Below, one piece after another: positions 30,314 to 36,413 of a stretch of 64,000 nt of DNA (the stretch's first letter is position 1; each line of letters starts with the position of its first letter). The notes under the pieces were generated by a model. It ran no database searches. It was given only the letters and a program-made list of their open reading frames with translations, and was not told the origin of the DNA. The stretch is from Variovorax paradoxus. GTDB taxonomy: Bacteria > Pseudomonadota > Gammaproteobacteria > Burkholderiales > Burkholderiaceae_C. The translations under genes and the position numbers were made by a program. The stretch spans positions 4,464,001 through 4,528,000 of the forward strand of contig CP063166.1 in the NCBI GenBank assembly GCA_016806145.1, written 5' to 3'.

Positions 30314-31231
30314 ATGCTCGGCGCGGTGAACTACGCGCAGCTGCTTTTCCCCGACTTCTCCCTGATCGCCATCGGCTGGCTCCTGTGCCGCTACACCGCG
30401 CTGGACCGCAAGGTCTGGGACCAGGTCGAGAGCCTCGTCTACTACTTTCTTTTTCCCACGCTGCTGTTCCATTCGATCGTGCGCAGCCCGCTCGATTTTG
30501 GTGCGACCTCGAGCCTGCTGATGGCGGGCGTGGGCGTGAGCCTGTGCGGCGTGGCGCTGGCCTATGCGCTGCCCTGGGTGCCCGGCATCGGCTCGCACCT
30601 CGATCGGCGCGACCATGCGGCGAGCGTGCAGGTCGCGTTCCGCTTCAACTCCTTCATCTGCCTCGCGATGGCCGAGCGGCTCGCGGGACCCGAAGGCCTG
30701 CTGCTGATCGCGGTGCTGATCGGGGTGTGCGTGCCGATGATGAACATCGCGGCGGTGTGGCCGATGACGCGGCATGCGCAGACGGGGTTCGCGCGGCAGC
30801 TGGTGCGCAATCCGCTGATCGTGGCGACGGTGGCGGGCTTGCTGGCGAACGTGCTGGGGTTCACGGTGCCTGGCTGGCTCACGCCGACCCTGTCGCGGAT
30901 CGGGGCGGCTTCGTTGGCGCTCGGGCTGCTGGCGGCGGGGGCGGGGATGCAGTTCGCCACGTTGGGGCGGGGGAAGGTGCTGGCGGCTTCGGTGCTGTCG
31001 ATTCGGCACTTCGTGTTGCCGCTGGTGGCCTGGGGGCTGGCGCGGTGGTTGCGGCTGGATGCGGCGCAGGCTTCGGTGTTGATGGCTTTTTCTGCGGTTC
31101 CTACTGCTTCTAGTGCTTACGTGTTGGCGCAGAGGATGGGGTACAACGGGGCGTTTGTGGCGGGGTTGGTGACCATGTCTACGGTGTTGGGGGTGGTTAG
31201 TTTGCCGTTTGCCTTGGCTTTGCCTCGTTGA
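30314..31231 (+). CDS. AEC-family (auxin efflux carrier type) permease
   Basis: A 305-residue membrane protein with about ten hydrophobic segments and the AEC features LLFPDFSLIAIGWLLCRYTALD near the start, VAFRFNSFICLAMAE in the middle and a second repeat ending STVLGVVSLPFALALPR. Bacterial members export or import malate, malonate or similar acids. A GTG at 30287 would add nine residues. The last third shifts from C-ending to G/T-ending codons (for example GTT, GCT, TCT near 31080-31230), unlike the surrounding genes. Confidence 0.88.
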   Translation: MLGAVNYAQLLFPDFSLIAIGWLLCRYTALDRKVWDQVESLVYYFLFPTLLFHSIVRSPLDFGATSSLLMAGVGVSLCGVALAYALPWVPGIGSHLDRRDHAASVQVAFRFNSFICLAMAERLAGPEGLLLIAVLIGVCVPMMNIAAVWPMTRHAQTGFARQLVRNPLIVATVAGLLANVLGFTVPGWLTPTLSRIGAASLALGLLAAGAGMQFATLGRGKVLAASVLSIRHFVLPLVAWGLARWLRLDAAQASVLMAFSAVPTASSAYVLAQRMGYNGAFVAGLVTMSTVLGVVSLPFALALPR

Positions 31232-31564
31232 ATCCTTCGACCGCTGTTTTTCTTGATTTTTGTGGGTCCTGCGGAGGCTGTTGGCCGGGTCTCGCCCCGG
31301 CGGGCGAGTCACTTTCTCTTGTCTCGCCAAGAGAAAGTAACCAAAGAGAAGGCGACCCCACTGTCTGTGTCCCTCCGCTTCGCTACGGGCAACCTGCGGT
31401 GCTCGGAGAAAGCGGGGGTCCGCAGAACTCGCTCCACTTCGTTGCGCTCAGACAGCTGCGGCCCTGATCCCGCTTTCTCCTGCGCTCCTCGGCACAGCCA
31501 GAGGGGATCAGGGTCAACGCGCCGTGGCGCGTCCTTGTGTGGGCGGGTGTCCTTCTGTTAGGTA
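31232..31564. repeat. hairpin-rich non-coding block
   Basis: About 330 bp without a credible gene. It holds three inverted repeats: ACTTTCTCTTG / CAAGAGAAAGT (31311-31321 with 31328-31338), GGAGAAAGCGGG / CCCGCTTTCTCC (31405-31416 with 31469-31480), and ACGCGCC / GGCGCGT (31517-31523 with 31526-31532). Base composition is less GC-biased than the genes. It lies between the convergent AEC and mesD genes. Comparable blocks are dispersed in GC-rich proteobacteria from memory, and are often annotated as spurious small proteins. Confidence 0.65.
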
Positions 31565-32590
31565 TCACACCGTGGCTAGCCGCTCCTTTGCCAGCTTGGT
31601 GCCCTCTGCAAGGGCTTTCAGCTTGCGCCATGCCACGTCCCTGCTCATGGGGGCTAGGCCGCAGTTCGTGCACGGGAACAGGCGCTCCTTCGGGACGAAC
31701 TGCAGGGCGCGGCCGATGGTGTCGGCCACTTCTTCGGGAGTCTCGATCGCTTCGCTGGCCACATCGATCACGCCGACCATCACGTCCTTGCCGGCCAACA
31801 GGCTCATCAGGTCGGGCGGCACGTGGGAGTGGATGCACTCCAGGCTCACCTGGTCGATCCGGCTCTTGGCGAGCGCGGGGAACACCAGCTCGTACTGGCG
31901 CCATTCCTCGCCGAGGGTGCTCTTCCAGTCCGTGTTGGCCTTGATGCCATAGCCGTAGCAGATGTGCACGGCGGTCGTGCAGGTCAGGCCCTGCGCCGCG
32001 CGCTCGAGCGCCTGCACGCCCCAGTCGGCGGCATCCTTCATGTAGACATTGAAGGCGGGCTCGTCGAACTGGATGATGTCCACACCATCGGCCTGCAGCG
32101 CCAGGGCTTCCTGGTTGAGCAACTCGGCGAAAGCGAAGGCCATCTTGACCTTGTCGCCGTAGAAGCGGTCGGCCACGGTGTCGACGATGGTCATCGGGCC
32201 CGGCAGGGTGAACTTGAGCTTCTTCTTCGTGTGCGCACGCGCCAACTGCGCTTCGAAGGCATGCACGCGGTCCTTCAGGCGCAGGGCCGAGACCACCTGC
32301 GGCACCATCGCGTCGTAGCGGTTGTCGCGGATGCCCATCTTCACCTTGTGCTCGAAGTCGATGCCCTCGACCTGCTCGAGGAAACCGTGCACGAAGTGCT
32401 GGCGCGACTGCTCGCCGTCGCACACGATGTCCAGGCCCGCGTCCTCCTGGGCCTTGATCCACAGCAGCGTCGCGTCGGCCTTGGCCTGGCGCAGCGCATC
32501 GCCCTCGGCCGCCCATTGAGGCCACAGCTTGTTGGTTTCGGCCAGCCAGGCTGGCTTCGGCAGGCTGCCGGCGATGGAGGTTTCGAACAT
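31565..32590 (-). CDS. mesD: MesD-type folate-independent methionine synthase (core MetE)
   Basis: A 341-residue protein that corresponds only to the C-terminal catalytic half of MetE. The zinc ligands are His209 and Cys211 (VHICYG), Glu251 (SLECIHSH) and Cys310 (CTNCGL). The folate-binding N-terminal half of MetE is missing. Among short core-MetE families, the adjacent DUF1852 gene marks it as MesD, which is known to need MesX and oxygen to make methionine; its methyl donor is not folate. AAGGA lies 7 bp before the ATG. The operon continues from mesX upstream (90 bp gap) and ends at the hairpin block. Confidence 0.88.
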   Translation of the reverse strand: MFETSIAGSLPKPAWLAETNKLWPQWAAEGDALRQAKADATLLWIKAQEDAGLDIVCDGEQSRQHFVHGFLEQVEGIDFEHKVKMGIRDNRYDAMVPQVVSALRLKDRVHAFEAQLARAHTKKKLKFTLPGPMTIVDTVADRFYGDKVKMAFAFAELLNQEALALQADGVDIIQFDEPAFNVYMKDAADWGVQALERAAQGLTCTTAVHICYGYGIKANTDWKSTLGEEWRQYELVFPALAKSRIDQVSLECIHSHVPPDLMSLLAGKDVMVGVIDVASEAIETPEEVADTIGRALQFVPKERLFPCTNCGLAPMSRDVAWRKLKALAEGTKLAKERLATV

Positions 32591-32680
32591 CTGGATTTTC
32601 CTTTTCAAGCGAAGACGGGATGGCGAGCGTACTGCGGGGCCTGTCAGGCCGCGCAGCTGTTTGATGGCGTGGGGATGGGG

Positions 32681-33664
32681 TCAGGCAACGCAGTCGGCAA
32701 CCCACTGCGCGAGCACGTTCCCGTAGGGCTTGATGAAGTGCTCCTCCGCGAACTTCCCCTGCCTGACCGCCAGCTGGCTGCGTTCCTCCCGGTCGTAGAC
32801 GATCTGCGTCAACGAGTAGTCCTGGTTCTTCAGGCTCGGGCTGTAGATCTTTCCGGCCGAGGAATTGGCGTTGTAGATCTCGGGGCGATAGATCTTCTGG
32901 AAGCTTTCCATCGTGCTGATGGTGCCGATCAGCTCGAGGCTCGTGTAGTCGCCAAGCAGGTCGCCATGGAAATAGAAGGCCAGGGGCGCAACGCCATTGG
33001 GCGGCATGAAGAAACGAACCTGCATCCCCATCTTGGCGAAGTACCGATCGGTCGAGGACAGCTCGTTCTGCCGGTACTCGGCGCCCAGCACCGGGTGCTG
33101 GTTTCCGGTCCGTTGATAGGTCTTGCTGGTCGAGGCGCTGATGCAGATGACGGGCGGCTTGCCGAAACGCTCCTTGTAGATGCGAGAGTTGGCGAACTGC
33201 TGGAACAGCTTTCCGTGCAGATCGCCGAAATCCTCGGGCGTGCCGAATTCCGCCCGGTCGGCGTTGTATGCGGGAAGCAGCACGCTGAAGTCGTAGTCGC
33301 GCACGTAGGAAGAGAAGTTGTTCCCCGCGATGCCGTCGATGCGCTGGTCCGTCGTCCTGTCGAGGATGCAGGTCTTCAGTATCTCGATCAGCGGGAATAC
33401 GGCGTTGCCGCTCTCGGCATCCAGGCTCATCTCCACCGAGATGATCTCGAGCTCGACGGCGTAGCGATCGCCCGTCGGGTTGTCCCAGTGCGCGAGGTCG
33501 TTGAAGCGGTTGTCGATCATCCTCAAGGTGTTGCGCAAGTTCTGCTGCCGGCTCGCTCCGCGCGCCAGGTTGGCGAAGTTGGTGGTGATGCGCGTGCTGT
33601 CCGATGGCTGGTAGTTCTCATCGAAACGGATGCTCTTGAGGGTGAAGGTGGGTTCTTTGTTCAT
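32681..33664 (-). CDS. mesX: MesX, DUF1852 putative oxygenase partner of MesD
   Basis: A 327-residue cytosolic protein of the DUF1852 family, recognised by its N-terminus TLKSIRFDENYQPSDSTRITTNFANLARG and by NVLAQWVADCVA at the end. Family knowledge places it as the obligatory partner of MesD in oxygen-dependent methionine synthesis. Its chemistry is not worked out. Notable conserved-looking charged segments include RQNELSSTDRYFAKMG and FYFHGDLLGDYTSLELIG. It lies between the FMN reductase and mesD in the same direction, all behind one promoter region. Confidence 0.87.
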   Translation of the reverse strand: MNKEPTFTLKSIRFDENYQPSDSTRITTNFANLARGASRQQNLRNTLRMIDNRFNDLAHWDNPTGDRYAVELEIISVEMSLDAESGNAVFPLIEILKTCILDRTTDQRIDGIAGNNFSSYVRDYDFSVLLPAYNADRAEFGTPEDFGDLHGKLFQQFANSRIYKERFGKPPVICISASTSKTYQRTGNQHPVLGAEYRQNELSSTDRYFAKMGMQVRFFMPPNGVAPLAFYFHGDLLGDYTSLELIGTISTMESFQKIYRPEIYNANSSAGKIYSPSLKNQDYSLTQIVYDREERSQLAVRQGKFAEEHFIKPYGNVLAQWVADCVA

Positions 33665-33712
33665 TGGAATCCGGCGATCAGATTTTTTCGAGAGAGAAGA
33701 CGAATTCCTGTG

Positions 33713-34294
33713 TCAGGCCAGCGCCGCTTCCTCGGCCGCGGAGGGCGAGGCGTGGCGCAGCCATTCGATCAATGGCAATGCCCGCTGGACCGCCAGCCTC
33801 GACCGCTCGATGAGGGCCTGGTTCCGCAGGCGGTGGTCGACGAAATCGCTGTCGGTCGCGTAGACACCCAGCGGCAGGGTGCGCGCCTGGAAGAAGCTGA
33901 ACAGCGGTCGCAGCTGGTGGTCGATCACCAGCGCATGGCGCTCGCTGCCGCCGGTGGCGGCCAACAGCACGGGCTTGTCGATCAGGGCGTCCTGGTCGAT
34001 GAAGTCGAAGAAGTGCTTGAACAGTCCCGTGTATGCGCCGCGATAGACCGGCGTTGCGACGACCAGCACGTCGGCTCGTTCGATCGCCGCCAGTTCCCGC
34101 TCCACCGTGTCGGGCAGTTGGGAGCGCCGGAGCGCACCGCCGAACAGCGGTGCGAGGGGACCGAGTTCGATCAGGCGCTGTTCGCAAGGGACCGCGTCGG
34201 CGATCAGGTCGAGCAGGTGTTCCGCCAGCGCGGCGGACTTCGATGGGCGTTGCAGCCCGCCGGAAACAGCGACGAGACGGAGTGGACGTGTCAT
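33713..34294 (-). CDS. NAD(P)H-dependent FMN reductase of the MesX/MesD operon
   Basis: A 193-residue flavodoxin-fold reductase: VAVSGGLQRPSKSAALAEHLL binds FMN phosphate, VVATPVYRGAYTGLFKHFFDFID and LLAATGGSERHALVIDHQLRPLFSFF are MsuE/SsuE-type signatures. It would supply reduced flavin, fitting the oxygen dependence of MesX. I chose the ATG at 34294 (MTRPLRL). The alternative 34306 lies inside a TTCAT-CTGG-ATGAA dyad that looks regulatory. It is the first gene of the operon and ends 48 bp before mesX. Confidence 0.87.
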   Translation of the reverse strand: MTRPLRLVAVSGGLQRPSKSAALAEHLLDLIADAVPCEQRLIELGPLAPLFGGALRRSQLPDTVERELAAIERADVLVVATPVYRGAYTGLFKHFFDFIDQDALIDKPVLLAATGGSERHALVIDHQLRPLFSFFQARTLPLGVYATDSDFVDHRLRNQALIERSRLAVQRALPLIEWLRHASPSAAEEAALA

Positions 34295-34301
34295 TTCTTC
34301 T

Positions 34302-34315
34302 TTCATCTGGATGAA
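34302..34315. promoter_or_regulatory. TTCAT-N4-ATGAA dyad, candidate MetR-like operator
   Basis: A perfect 5-bp inverted repeat TTCAT-CTGG-ATGAA lies between the FMN reductase start and the divergent LysR gene, in an AT-rich 89-bp gap. E. coli MetR binds TGAA-N5-TTCA, so orientation and spacing differ. Confidence 0.45.
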
Positions 34316-34383
34316 TGCTAGCCAGGGGAATCGATGACGTAAAATGTTTTTATTTCAACAATCCATGAGCGGGAGTCATGTGA

Positions 34384-35292
34384 ATGCTTGAACGCCTCCA
34401 CCTCAGCATCGTCCGGCAGGTCGAACAGCAAGGCTCGCTGACGGCCGCCGCGGGCGTGCTGAACCTGACCCAGTCGGCGCTGAGCCACAGCATGAAGAAG
34501 CTGGAGCATCAGCTGGGCACCGACATCTGGCTGCGCGAAGGCCGAAGCCTGCGCCTGACGCAGGCCGGCCAGTACCTGCTGGCGGTGGCGAACCGCGTGC
34601 TGCCGCAGCTCGACCTGGCCGAGGAGCGCCTGGGCCAGTTCGCGCAGGGCGAGCGCGGCGCGCTGCGCATCGGCATGGAATGCCACCCTTGCTACCAGTG
34701 GCTGCTCAAGGTGGTGTCACCCTACCTGGCCGCATGGCCCGACGTGGACGTGGACGTGAAGCAGAAATTCCAGTTCGGCGGGATCGGCGCGCTGTTCGGC
34801 TACGAGATCGACCTGCTGGTCACGCCCGACCCGCTCCATAAGCCGGGCCTGAAGTTCGAGCCCGTGTTCGACTACGAGCAGGTGCTGGTCGTGGCCAAGG
34901 GTCATGCGCTGGCTTCGGCGCCCTACGTGAAGCCGCGGCAGCTGACCGGGGAGGTGCTCATCAGCTATCCCGTGGATGTCGAGCGCCTGGACATCTACAA
35001 CCATTTCCTGTTGCCGGCCGGCGTCACGCCCAAGCGCCACAAGGCGATCGAAACCACCGACATCATGTTGCAGATGGTGGCCAGCGGCCGCGGCGTGGCC
35101 GCGCTGCCGCGCTGGCTGGTCGAGGAGTACGCGCAGAAGATGGACGTGGTGCCGGTGCGGCTCGGCCCGCGCGGCATCGCCAAGCAGATCTTCCTGGGGG
35201 CGCGCGAGGCGGACACCGCCATCGATTACGTGCGGGCCTTCATCGAACTGGCCCGACAGCCTGCCATCGCCGTTGCGCTAGAAGCCGGCTGA
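34384..35292 (+). CDS. MetR-like LysR activator divergent from the methionine operon
   Basis: A 302-residue regulator. It has the winged helix (LSIVRQVEQQGSLTAAAGVLNLTQSALSHSMKKLE) and the effector-domain opening ALRIGMECHPCYQWLLKVVSPY, which closely matches MetR, the homocysteine-responsive activator of met genes. The 93-bp gap to the FMN reductase contains an AT-rich TAAAATGTTTTTATTTCAAC stretch and a TTCAT/ATGAA dyad. This strongly suggests control of the mes operon in response to homocysteine. That control is inference. Confidence 0.88.
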   Translation: MLERLHLSIVRQVEQQGSLTAAAGVLNLTQSALSHSMKKLEHQLGTDIWLREGRSLRLTQAGQYLLAVANRVLPQLDLAEERLGQFAQGERGALRIGMECHPCYQWLLKVVSPYLAAWPDVDVDVKQKFQFGGIGALFGYEIDLLVTPDPLHKPGLKFEPVFDYEQVLVVAKGHALASAPYVKPRQLTGEVLISYPVDVERLDIYNHFLLPAGVTPKRHKAIETTDIMLQMVASGRGVAALPRWLVEEYAQKMDVVPVRLGPRGIAKQIFLGAREADTAIDYVRAFIELARQPAIAVALEAG

Positions 35293-35336
35293 GGAACATC
35301 AAGGCCGAGCGCAGCCGGCCACTCCAAAGAAAGAAC

Positions 35337-36413
35337 CTACTCGGGAGCAACGGCCCCCAAGGCCCACTCCACGTGCTCCCGAACCAAGGCACTGGCGCCG
35401 TCCTTGCGGGACACCAGGGCCTCGCGAGCCCCCTCCTCGCCAGCCCTCAGCGCATTCCCCAGGGCCACCGCGATGTTCCGCAGCCACCGCTCATGGCCGA
35501 TCCGCCGAATCGGACTCCCCTCGGTCCTGCGCAGGAACTCTTCCTCGGTCCACGCAAACAACTCGGCCAAAGTACGCCCCGTCAACCCGTCCCTCGCATC
35601 GAAGTCCGCCAGCGAACTCTTCTTGGCGAACTTGTTCCACGGACAGATCAACTGGCAGTCATCGCAGCCATAGATCCGGTTGCCCATCGACGTGCGCAGC
35701 TCGACCGGGATCGCCCCGCCATGCTCGATCGTGAGGTAGGAGATGCACCGCCGCGCATCGAGCCGCCGCGGCGCCACGATCGCCTGCGTCGGGCACACGT
35801 CGATGCAGGCGCTGCAGCTGCCGCAGTGCGAGCTCACCGGCTCGCTCTCGGGCAGCACCATGTCGACGTAGATCTCGCCGAGAAAGAACATCGAGCCCGC
35901 GTTCCGATCGAGCACCAGCGTGTGCTTGCCGCGCCAGCCCTGCCCGCTGCGCGAGGCCAGCTCGGCCTCGAGCACCGGCGCCGAATCGGTGAAGGCGCGA
36001 TGCCCGAAAGGCCCGACTTCCAGCGCGATGCGCTCGGCCAGTTTCGCGAGCCGGTTGCGCAGCACCTTGTGGTAGTCGCGGCCGCGCGCATAGACCGAGA
36101 CGATGGCCTCGCCGGGTCGGCGCAGGCGTTCGAACTCGATCGCCTGCCAGTCGGGATCGGTGTCGCGCGGCAGGTAGTCCATGCGCGCGGTGATCACGCT
36201 CACGGTGCCGGGCACCAGCTCGGCGGGCCGCGCGCGCCGCGTGCCATGCGCCGCCATGTAATCCATCTCGCCATGGAACCCATGGGCCAGCCATTGCATC
36301 AGACCGTCCTCGGCGCTCGACAGATCGACGCCCGCGATTCCGATTTGGGAGAATCCGAGTTCCCGGGCCAAGGCCTGAATACGCACAACGAGTGGATGGC
36401 TGCTGACGATCAC
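35337..36413 (-). CDS. queG: epoxyqueuosine reductase QueG
   Basis: QueG reduces epoxyqueuosine to queuosine in tRNA, using cobalamin and two 4Fe-4S clusters. The 358-residue protein carries both clusters: Cys197, Cys200, Cys203, Cys207 (HCGSCSACIDVCP) and Cys250, Cys253, Cys257 (GCDDCQLICPW). The catalytic Asp143 is in FTDSAPVLEAE. The only reasonable start for the family N-terminus is a GTG at 36413, which overlaps the divergent tsaE start region. A C-terminal HEAT-like extension follows. Confidence 0.93.
   Translation of the reverse strand: MIVSSHPLVVRIQALARELGFSQIGIAGVDLSSAEDGLMQWLAHGFHGEMDYMAAHGTRRARPAELVPGTVSVITARMDYLPRDTDPDWQAIEFERLRRPGEAIVSVYARGRDYHKVLRNRLAKLAERIALEVGPFGHRAFTDSAPVLEAELASRSGQGWRGKHTLVLDRNAGSMFFLGEIYVDMVLPESEPVSSHCGSCSACIDVCPTQAIVAPRRLDARRCISYLTIEHGGAIPVELRTSMGNRIYGCDDCQLICPWNKFAKKSSLADFDARDGLTGRTLAELFAWTEEEFLRRTEGSPIRRIGHERWLRNIAVALGNALRAGEEGAREALVSRKDGASALVREHVEWALGAVAPE

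Follow-up and report, generated by a model that had tools for sequence, protein, structure and literature searches.

A mesD-mesX methionine synthesis locus of Variovorax paradoxus and the flavin reductases that alternate beside mesX

Positions 31565..35292 of a 64,000-nucleotide stretch of Variovorax paradoxus DNA (contig CP063166.1; the whole stretch is referred to as the window) hold a member of the described MesD/MesX system, in which a core methionine synthase, MesD, has MesX as its partner, together with genes for a flavin mononucleotide (FMN) reductase and a LysR-type regulator. Sequence comparisons indicated that such loci, when they have a reductase at all, have one of two kinds: a protein of a dedicated MsuE subclade or, from a different family, one that is RutF/HpaC-like. 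This finding supports a supply of reduced flavin. We give a probability of about 0.5 to the reading of the locus as a module that makes methionine independently of B12 and folate, in which MesX would use reduced flavin and O2 and the dedicated reductase would be replaceable. The four genes that an earlier note, made from the letters of the window, had recognised were found where it had placed them:

31565..32590, minus strand: mesD, core methionine synthase without the folate domain, 341 amino acids, subfamily D1
32681..33664, minus strand: mesX, PF08908 (formerly DUF1852), 327 amino acids, obligate partner of MesD in published tests
33713..34306, minus strand: MsuE-type FMN reductase of the mesX-linked subclade, 197 amino acids, TIGR03566
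34384..35292, plus strand: MetR-like regulator of the LysR type, transcribed divergently from the operon, 302 amino acids, best model NF011950

On the minus strand the genes are transcribed in the order FMN reductase, mesX and mesD, and the LysR gene runs in the opposite direction. Because the gaps between the same-strand genes were just 48 and 90 bases, it is plausible that the reductase, mesX and mesD genes form one operon. In the mechanism that we propose, the MetR-like protein would sense homocysteine and switch on the divergent operon, and the MsuE-type reductase would, according to the function of its family, make diffusible reduced FMN. With this flavin and O2, MesX would make a methyl donor out of a central metabolite, or would itself become methylated at a side chain; the requirement for MesX and for aerobic growth was demonstrated in other members of the system (Price et al.). 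MesD would then move the methyl group to the zinc-bound homocysteine thiolate, an activity shown elsewhere and for which the residues are conserved here. In most lineages an unrelated or a general cellular reductase would serve instead of the dedicated one.

The surroundings of mesX were surveyed in three sets of loci: 80 loci nearest to the MesX of the window (the best 80 of 562, with 75 distinct MesX proteins, a set biased to relatives), 12 plasmid loci picked for diversity from 60 listed of 209 plasmid records, and all 43 other MesX-bearing genomes of the phylum sample, where some loci were cut by contig ends. Three loci belonged to two sets, and the 135 loci in total represented 127 distinct MesX proteins. 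A gene was considered to be near mesX when it was found at most 4 kb before it or 5 kb behind it. The mesD gene adjoined mesX in all the loci of each set (80/80, 12/12 and 43/43, that is 135/135) as well as in the window. MsuE-type reductases were near mesX in 57/80, 0/12 and 4/43 loci, and reductases of the PF01613 family in 12/80, 2/12 and 2/43 loci, the two families never occurring together (0/80, 0/12 and 0/43). Genome-wide hidden Markov model (HMM) searches of the 43 genomes agreed with this, the families adjoining mesX in 4 and 2 loci among the matches listed; PF03358 matches about 3 kb from mesX in two genomes (G375 and G279) were left uncounted.

The reductase of the window scored above the MsuE equivalog cut-off (TIGR03566, 250.6 against 212.5 bits), and the PF01613 proteins near mesX were RutF- and HpaC-like, scoring below the cut-offs of those models. 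Both the MsuE/PF03358 and the RutF/HpaC-like/PF01613 families are reductase partners of two-component monooxygenases. The alternation near mesX of two unrelated reductase families with the same trade is hard to explain otherwise and thus favours the use of flavin by MesX, which we consider indirectly supported. Like the MsuE of the sulfonate two-component monooxygenases, the reductase of the window exceeds the TIGR03566 cut-off, but it is mesX-linked and falls in a clade of its own. The host genome has a second MsuE, 61% identical to the mesX-linked reductase, which sits among open reading frames (ORFs) resembling, by eye, sulfur-scavenging flavin monooxygenases. In a quick tree with some long branches, the mesX-linked reductases plus an unlinked one from genome G196 formed a single clade (support of 96 in the Shimodaira-Hasegawa-like approximate likelihood ratio test, SH-aLRT), which excluded the second MsuE of the genome and four others. 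The MsuE-type gene was placed upstream of mesX, between mesX and mesD (locus L129), or, in G196, away from both.

The separate MsuE of the genome, the distinct clade and the unrelated reductase family in the same neighbourhood elsewhere would not be expected if the reductase were an ordinary sulfur-assimilation MsuE that had come into the operon by chance in one lineage and had nothing to do with MesX. Neither would the joint response with mesX in Acinetobacter baumannii, where, on addition of B12, the DUF1852 gene fell by 8.3 log2 units and a flavin reductase gene whose locus number differs by two fell by 2.5 (2026, PMC12892962); this response also speaks for our main reading. The idea draws on the fact that MsuE serves many monooxygenases (PMC13352529) and on the absence of the reductase from the majority of the mesDX loci sampled across the phylum; weighing both sides, we regard it as distinctly improbable.

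MesX matched PF08908 with 602 bits (E 2.7e-181), a family that Pfam already names 'Putative oxygenase MesX'. In alignments whose members shared at least 54% identity pairwise, H150, H190 and C174 were the only invariant histidines and cysteine of 136 MesX proteins, and E196 was invariant too. The strand predicted at 183-190 carries H190 and the next one, at 194-199, carries E196, an arrangement that, with just two invariant histidines, would suit a metal-dependent oxygenase, for instance one whose 2-His-1-carboxylate site combines H150 and H190 with an acidic residue, E196 being one candidate; in that case the reductase would do no more than reduce or reactivate the metal, or serve other oxygenases. 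However, many further acidic residues were as invariant as E196, and flavin reductases recur beside mesDX. A metal-dependent MesX is in our opinion unlikely, although it has to be taken seriously.

The structure model of MesX (predicted local distance difference test score, pLDDT, 86) gave no confident match to a solved structure, and Foldseek searches against the PDB and viral models returned nothing at E <= 0.001. Rows of major histocompatibility complex class I proteins in the fold lists were, in our judgement, a common sheet arrangement and were set aside. At the sequence level, comparison of MesX with the PDB gave nothing at E <= 1, and the lone match of a MesX profile to PDB sequences (E 0.18) was taken as chance. 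If MesX were the oxygenase part of a two-component flavin-dependent monooxygenase, the known folds to expect would be a luciferase-like TIM barrel or an acyl-CoA dehydrogenase-like one, and its need for reduced flavin from a separate reductase is suggested by the gene neighbourhood. Weak structural alignments of the model pointed toward GNAT acetyltransferases. The GNAT loop that binds the coenzyme A (CoA) pyrophosphate has the motif Q/R-x-x-G-x-G/A and lies between strand 4 and helix 3; no such motif was seen by eye in MesX, whose strand 4/helix 3 junction in the window reads GNNFSSYVRDYDF. We can picture, as an extremely unlikely elaboration, a GNAT-like scaffold that has become an enzyme dependent on reduced flavin and O2 and cuts the methyl group from a central metabolite, a methyl source free of folate and cobalamin, with the MsuE-type and RutF/HpaC-like reductases as interchangeable donors and the MesD subfamilies as interchangeable acceptors. 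If this were true, cells would gain a de novo source of the methionine methyl group without folate or cobalamin. By title and abstract, with partial coverage of full texts, we found no later paper resolving the chemistry of MesX, and the portions of PMC12366255 and PMC11003636 that we covered hold nothing on it.

MesD exceeded the cut-off of NF006589, 'methionine synthase' (587 against 392 bits), and matched the core synthase 3RPD with E 8e-123. This solved MesD-type synthase belongs to the same family along its full length and has the same zinc ligands, but it is a different protein. PF01717 covered residues 4-330 of 342, and TIGR01371 was matched only at model positions 427-753 of 754, which bears out the absence of the folate-binding half, the N-terminal half of MetE being missing. 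The first ATG of mesD is at 32590 (341 amino acids), and the listed ORF starts upstream, at a TTG at 32608. In ATG numbering the zinc ligands had been correctly given as His209, Cys211, Glu251 and Cys310. They were invariant in 135 aligned MesD proteins (the window plus 134 of the 135 loci, one being dropped by length), as were S9, E60 and D176, the homocysteine positions discussed by Price et al., which we mapped by hand through the 3RPD alignment; all seven residues were shared by 54 D1 and 81 D2 proteins.

These D1 and D2 proteins are two discrete subfamilies. Members of D1, the type of the window, were 84-100% identical to each other and those of D2, including the Acinetobacter proteins, 74-100%; identity between D1 and D2 was 52-60%, with a clear gap from the values within subfamilies. 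D1 was found in 50/80 relatives, 0/12 plasmid loci and 3/43 phylum-sample loci. MesX was not split into two groups parallel to D1 and D2. In a quick MesX tree of 110 of the 135 loci plus the window, the MesD type changed at least two times, Stenotrophomonas D2 lying within a D1 group and the D1 of L129 at a distant position; both switches were forced by well-supported branches, that of L129 being long. Loci of Xanthomonas and Achromobacter had LysR proteins 88-92% and reductases 76-80% identical to those of the window, yet their MesD was of D2 type (55-58%). As judged from these comparisons, the MesD subfamilies have been swapped beside MesX at least twice. The limits used by Price et al. against the MesD of Acinetobacter baylyi were 560 bits in their UniProt survey and 390 bits in MicrobesOnline (PMC7857596). 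The D1 MesD of the window was 57% identical to the D2 MesD of Acinetobacter lwoffii and scored 400 bits against it; since this is below the 560-bit limit, which was set against the A. baylyi protein, D1 was probably outside the count of the UniProt survey, and it may have entered the MicrobesOnline set.

Between the two transcription units, the following elements were proposed on the basis of 70 homologous intergenic regions, which are related and thus are not independent events:

34365..34379, between the two transcription units: putative MetR-like box ATGAGCGGGAGTCAT, its core compared in the 70 regions
34339..34378, minus strand: conserved footprint consisting of the box and TGAAATAA...CATTTTAC, of which CATTTTAC is kept in 66/70 regions

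The MetR consensus is ATGAA-N5-TTCAT, and PF08908-metE2 is among the well-conserved MetR targets described by Leyn et al. (2014, PMC4239095). The motif TGAA-N5-TTCA was found at the same place beside the LysR gene, exactly in 13/70 regions and with one mismatch or none in 60/70, the window being included in the 70. NF011950 (MetR) was the best of 53 NCBIfam matches of the LysR protein, with 223.6 bits. The MetR-metE divergon and PF08908-metE2 of Leyn et al. likewise have a divergent LysR gene with ATGAA-N5-TTCAT-like boxes before the operon; they differ from the window, whose regulator scores below the MetR equivalog cut-off and whose box is degenerate. The extended footprint occurred once in the 9.44 Mb genome at up to three mismatches (reversed control, 0); since the window had contributed to the pattern, what is informative is just that no second site turned up. 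A wider LysR regulon was not found in the host genome with the one pattern searched. The footprint was also found about 130 bases in front of the unlinked mesX-type reductase of G196, where the operon is split: reductase and footprint are on one contig (L184 7693-8376) and mesX-mesD, without a reductase, on another (L130). No Rfam match was obtained within 31000-36000, and a scan for promoters and terminators gave nothing exceeding shuffled sequence. A riboswitch was considered and discarded, with none in 31000-36000 and just tRNA and ALIL pseudoknot matches in 10 homologous loci. Downstream of mesD, an inverted repeat, CTTTCTCTT...AAGAGAAAG, was observed at 31312-31337 of the window and may be a dispersed repeat.

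Several results weigh against a MesX that uses reduced flavin within the regulated module proposed above. Neither of the two reductase families tested was near mesX in 11/80, 10/12 and 37/43 loci. Among the 80 relatives, 10/50 D1 loci were without a nearby reductase, one of which (L047) keeps a truncated remnant of about 23 residues. Anywhere in the genome, PF03358 was found in 43/43 and PF01613 in 41/43 genomes among the matches listed, and linkage cannot gauge dependence. Price et al. reported that mesD and mesX alone suffice in Escherichia coli with no added reductase (PMC7857596), so a reductase in cis can be dispensed with. A flavin-binding motif or fold was not recognised in MesX. As for regulation, the LysR protein was under the MetR cut-off (223.6 against 382 bits), the box of the window had 2 mismatches in its 8-base core, making it one of the 10/70 without a close match, and MetR regulation is missing in more than half of the genomes of Comamonadaceae, the group nearest this locus (PMC4239095).

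Reductase loss from mesDX loci is thus frequent. The earlier note had spoken of a conserved FMN reductase, which holds for the close relatives (57/80) and not for the phylum sample, with an MsuE-type protein in 4/43 loci, the unrelated one in 2/43 and neither in 37/43; absence from most mesDX loci, which it had set beforehand as counting against its proposal, is what we found at the level of gene linkage. A reductase conserved in all mesDX loci had to be rejected on the same count. Its naming of a MetR-like LysR gene agrees with the best NCBIfam model, and the link that it drew to oxygen-dependent, folate-independent methionine synthesis fits the locus but had already been published (PMC7857596, PMC4239095). 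The genes had been rightly read, the claim of a conserved reductase was too wide, and this locus is well suited to probing how MesX acts, though others would serve too.

The phylum-sample loci with a TauE/SafE-family gene near mesDX were L133, L136, L137, L139, L144, L149, L157, L159, L160 and L165, that is 10/43 against 0.41 expected from per-genome gene counts, and a separate search, among the matches listed, gave the same ten. Five of these loci are from one genus and three from one family, so that counting by family leaves no more than four lineages, and the same rough model puts the probability of four or more at about 7e-4. Three plasmid loci also had such a gene (L119, L121 and L124), L121 being the same plasmid as L136. 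These genes, within about 4 kb of mesX, in four families and in several orientations, could suggest that MesX acts on a sulfur oxyanion or an organosulfur compound and that an anion exporter removes the product, in line with the place of MsuE-type reductases in sulfonate metabolism. Besides the clustering of the ten loci in a few taxa, this proposal meets with the result of tblastn, which found TauE/SafE near mesX in 0/80 close relatives, and with the reasoning that the net methyl source of E. coli growing on glucose cannot be a methionine-derived organosulfur methyl. We find it very unlikely. The words TauE and SafE are absent from the main text of Price et al. 2021 and of Leyn et al. 2014.

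The nearest relatives of the locus were in Acidovorax and Variovorax. Because the host genome had no MetE over the cut-off, but a split MetH and cobQ, MesD is probably, on gene content, one of its two methionine synthases, and MesD as the sole one was rejected. MetH was split over two ORFs with an opposite-strand LysR-type ORF between them (L189, own genome C1:212500-220000). Elsewhere in this genome (L190, C1:2360000-2363500), a distant MetE-like protein with 30 bits to the MetE model adjoins an ORF resembling, by eye, a Rieske oxygenase, possibly as a demethylation pair. MesX was sporadic, being found in 44/398 phylum-sample and 5/150 family-sample genomes, the own genome included in both, in 0/14 control genomes and in 209 plasmid records. 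Genome G082 had mesX-matching fragments (C1:2175963-2176446), one with a stop codon, and a full-length copy elsewhere. A record titled Bacillus subtilis (L055) carried mesDX with a MesX 75% identical to that of the window, possibly by contamination or mislabelling. On an A. lwoffii plasmid, a gene resembling methylenetetrahydrofolate reductase (L119 2041-3432; PF02219 and DUF5981) was upstream of mesDX.

MesD and MesX were named by Price et al. in 2021, who found a need for both genes and for aerobic growth, but not for MetF, noted a putative flavin reductase often nearby and predicted a flavin cofactor for MesX (PMC7857596); a 2026 study tied tolerance of nitrous oxide to MesD (PMC13059711). 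The systems of A. baylyi (ACIAD3523/3524) and Sphingomonas koreensis share with the window the zinc and homocysteine residues of MesD, the adjacent PF08908 MesX and a reductase that is often nearby. In contrast to the published proteins, the MesD of the window belongs to the second subfamily, D1, and its reductase is of MsuE type where the locus of A. lwoffii has a RutF/HpaC-like one. What is new here beyond the published system are the counts of reductase linkage, the two alternating reductase families, the two MesD subfamilies, and the invariant residues and model comparison of MesX.

The tests of MesX are now narrowed to two unrelated reductase types as candidate partners and to a short list of invariant positions (H150, C174, H190, E196 and the stretch 111-127), and the second MesD subfamily offers a means to map the mutual recognition of MesX and MesD. 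How MesX draws methyl groups out of central metabolism with the help of oxygen has been a question at least since the 2021 paper; such a supply would give the methyl of methionine a source beside folate and corrinoids.

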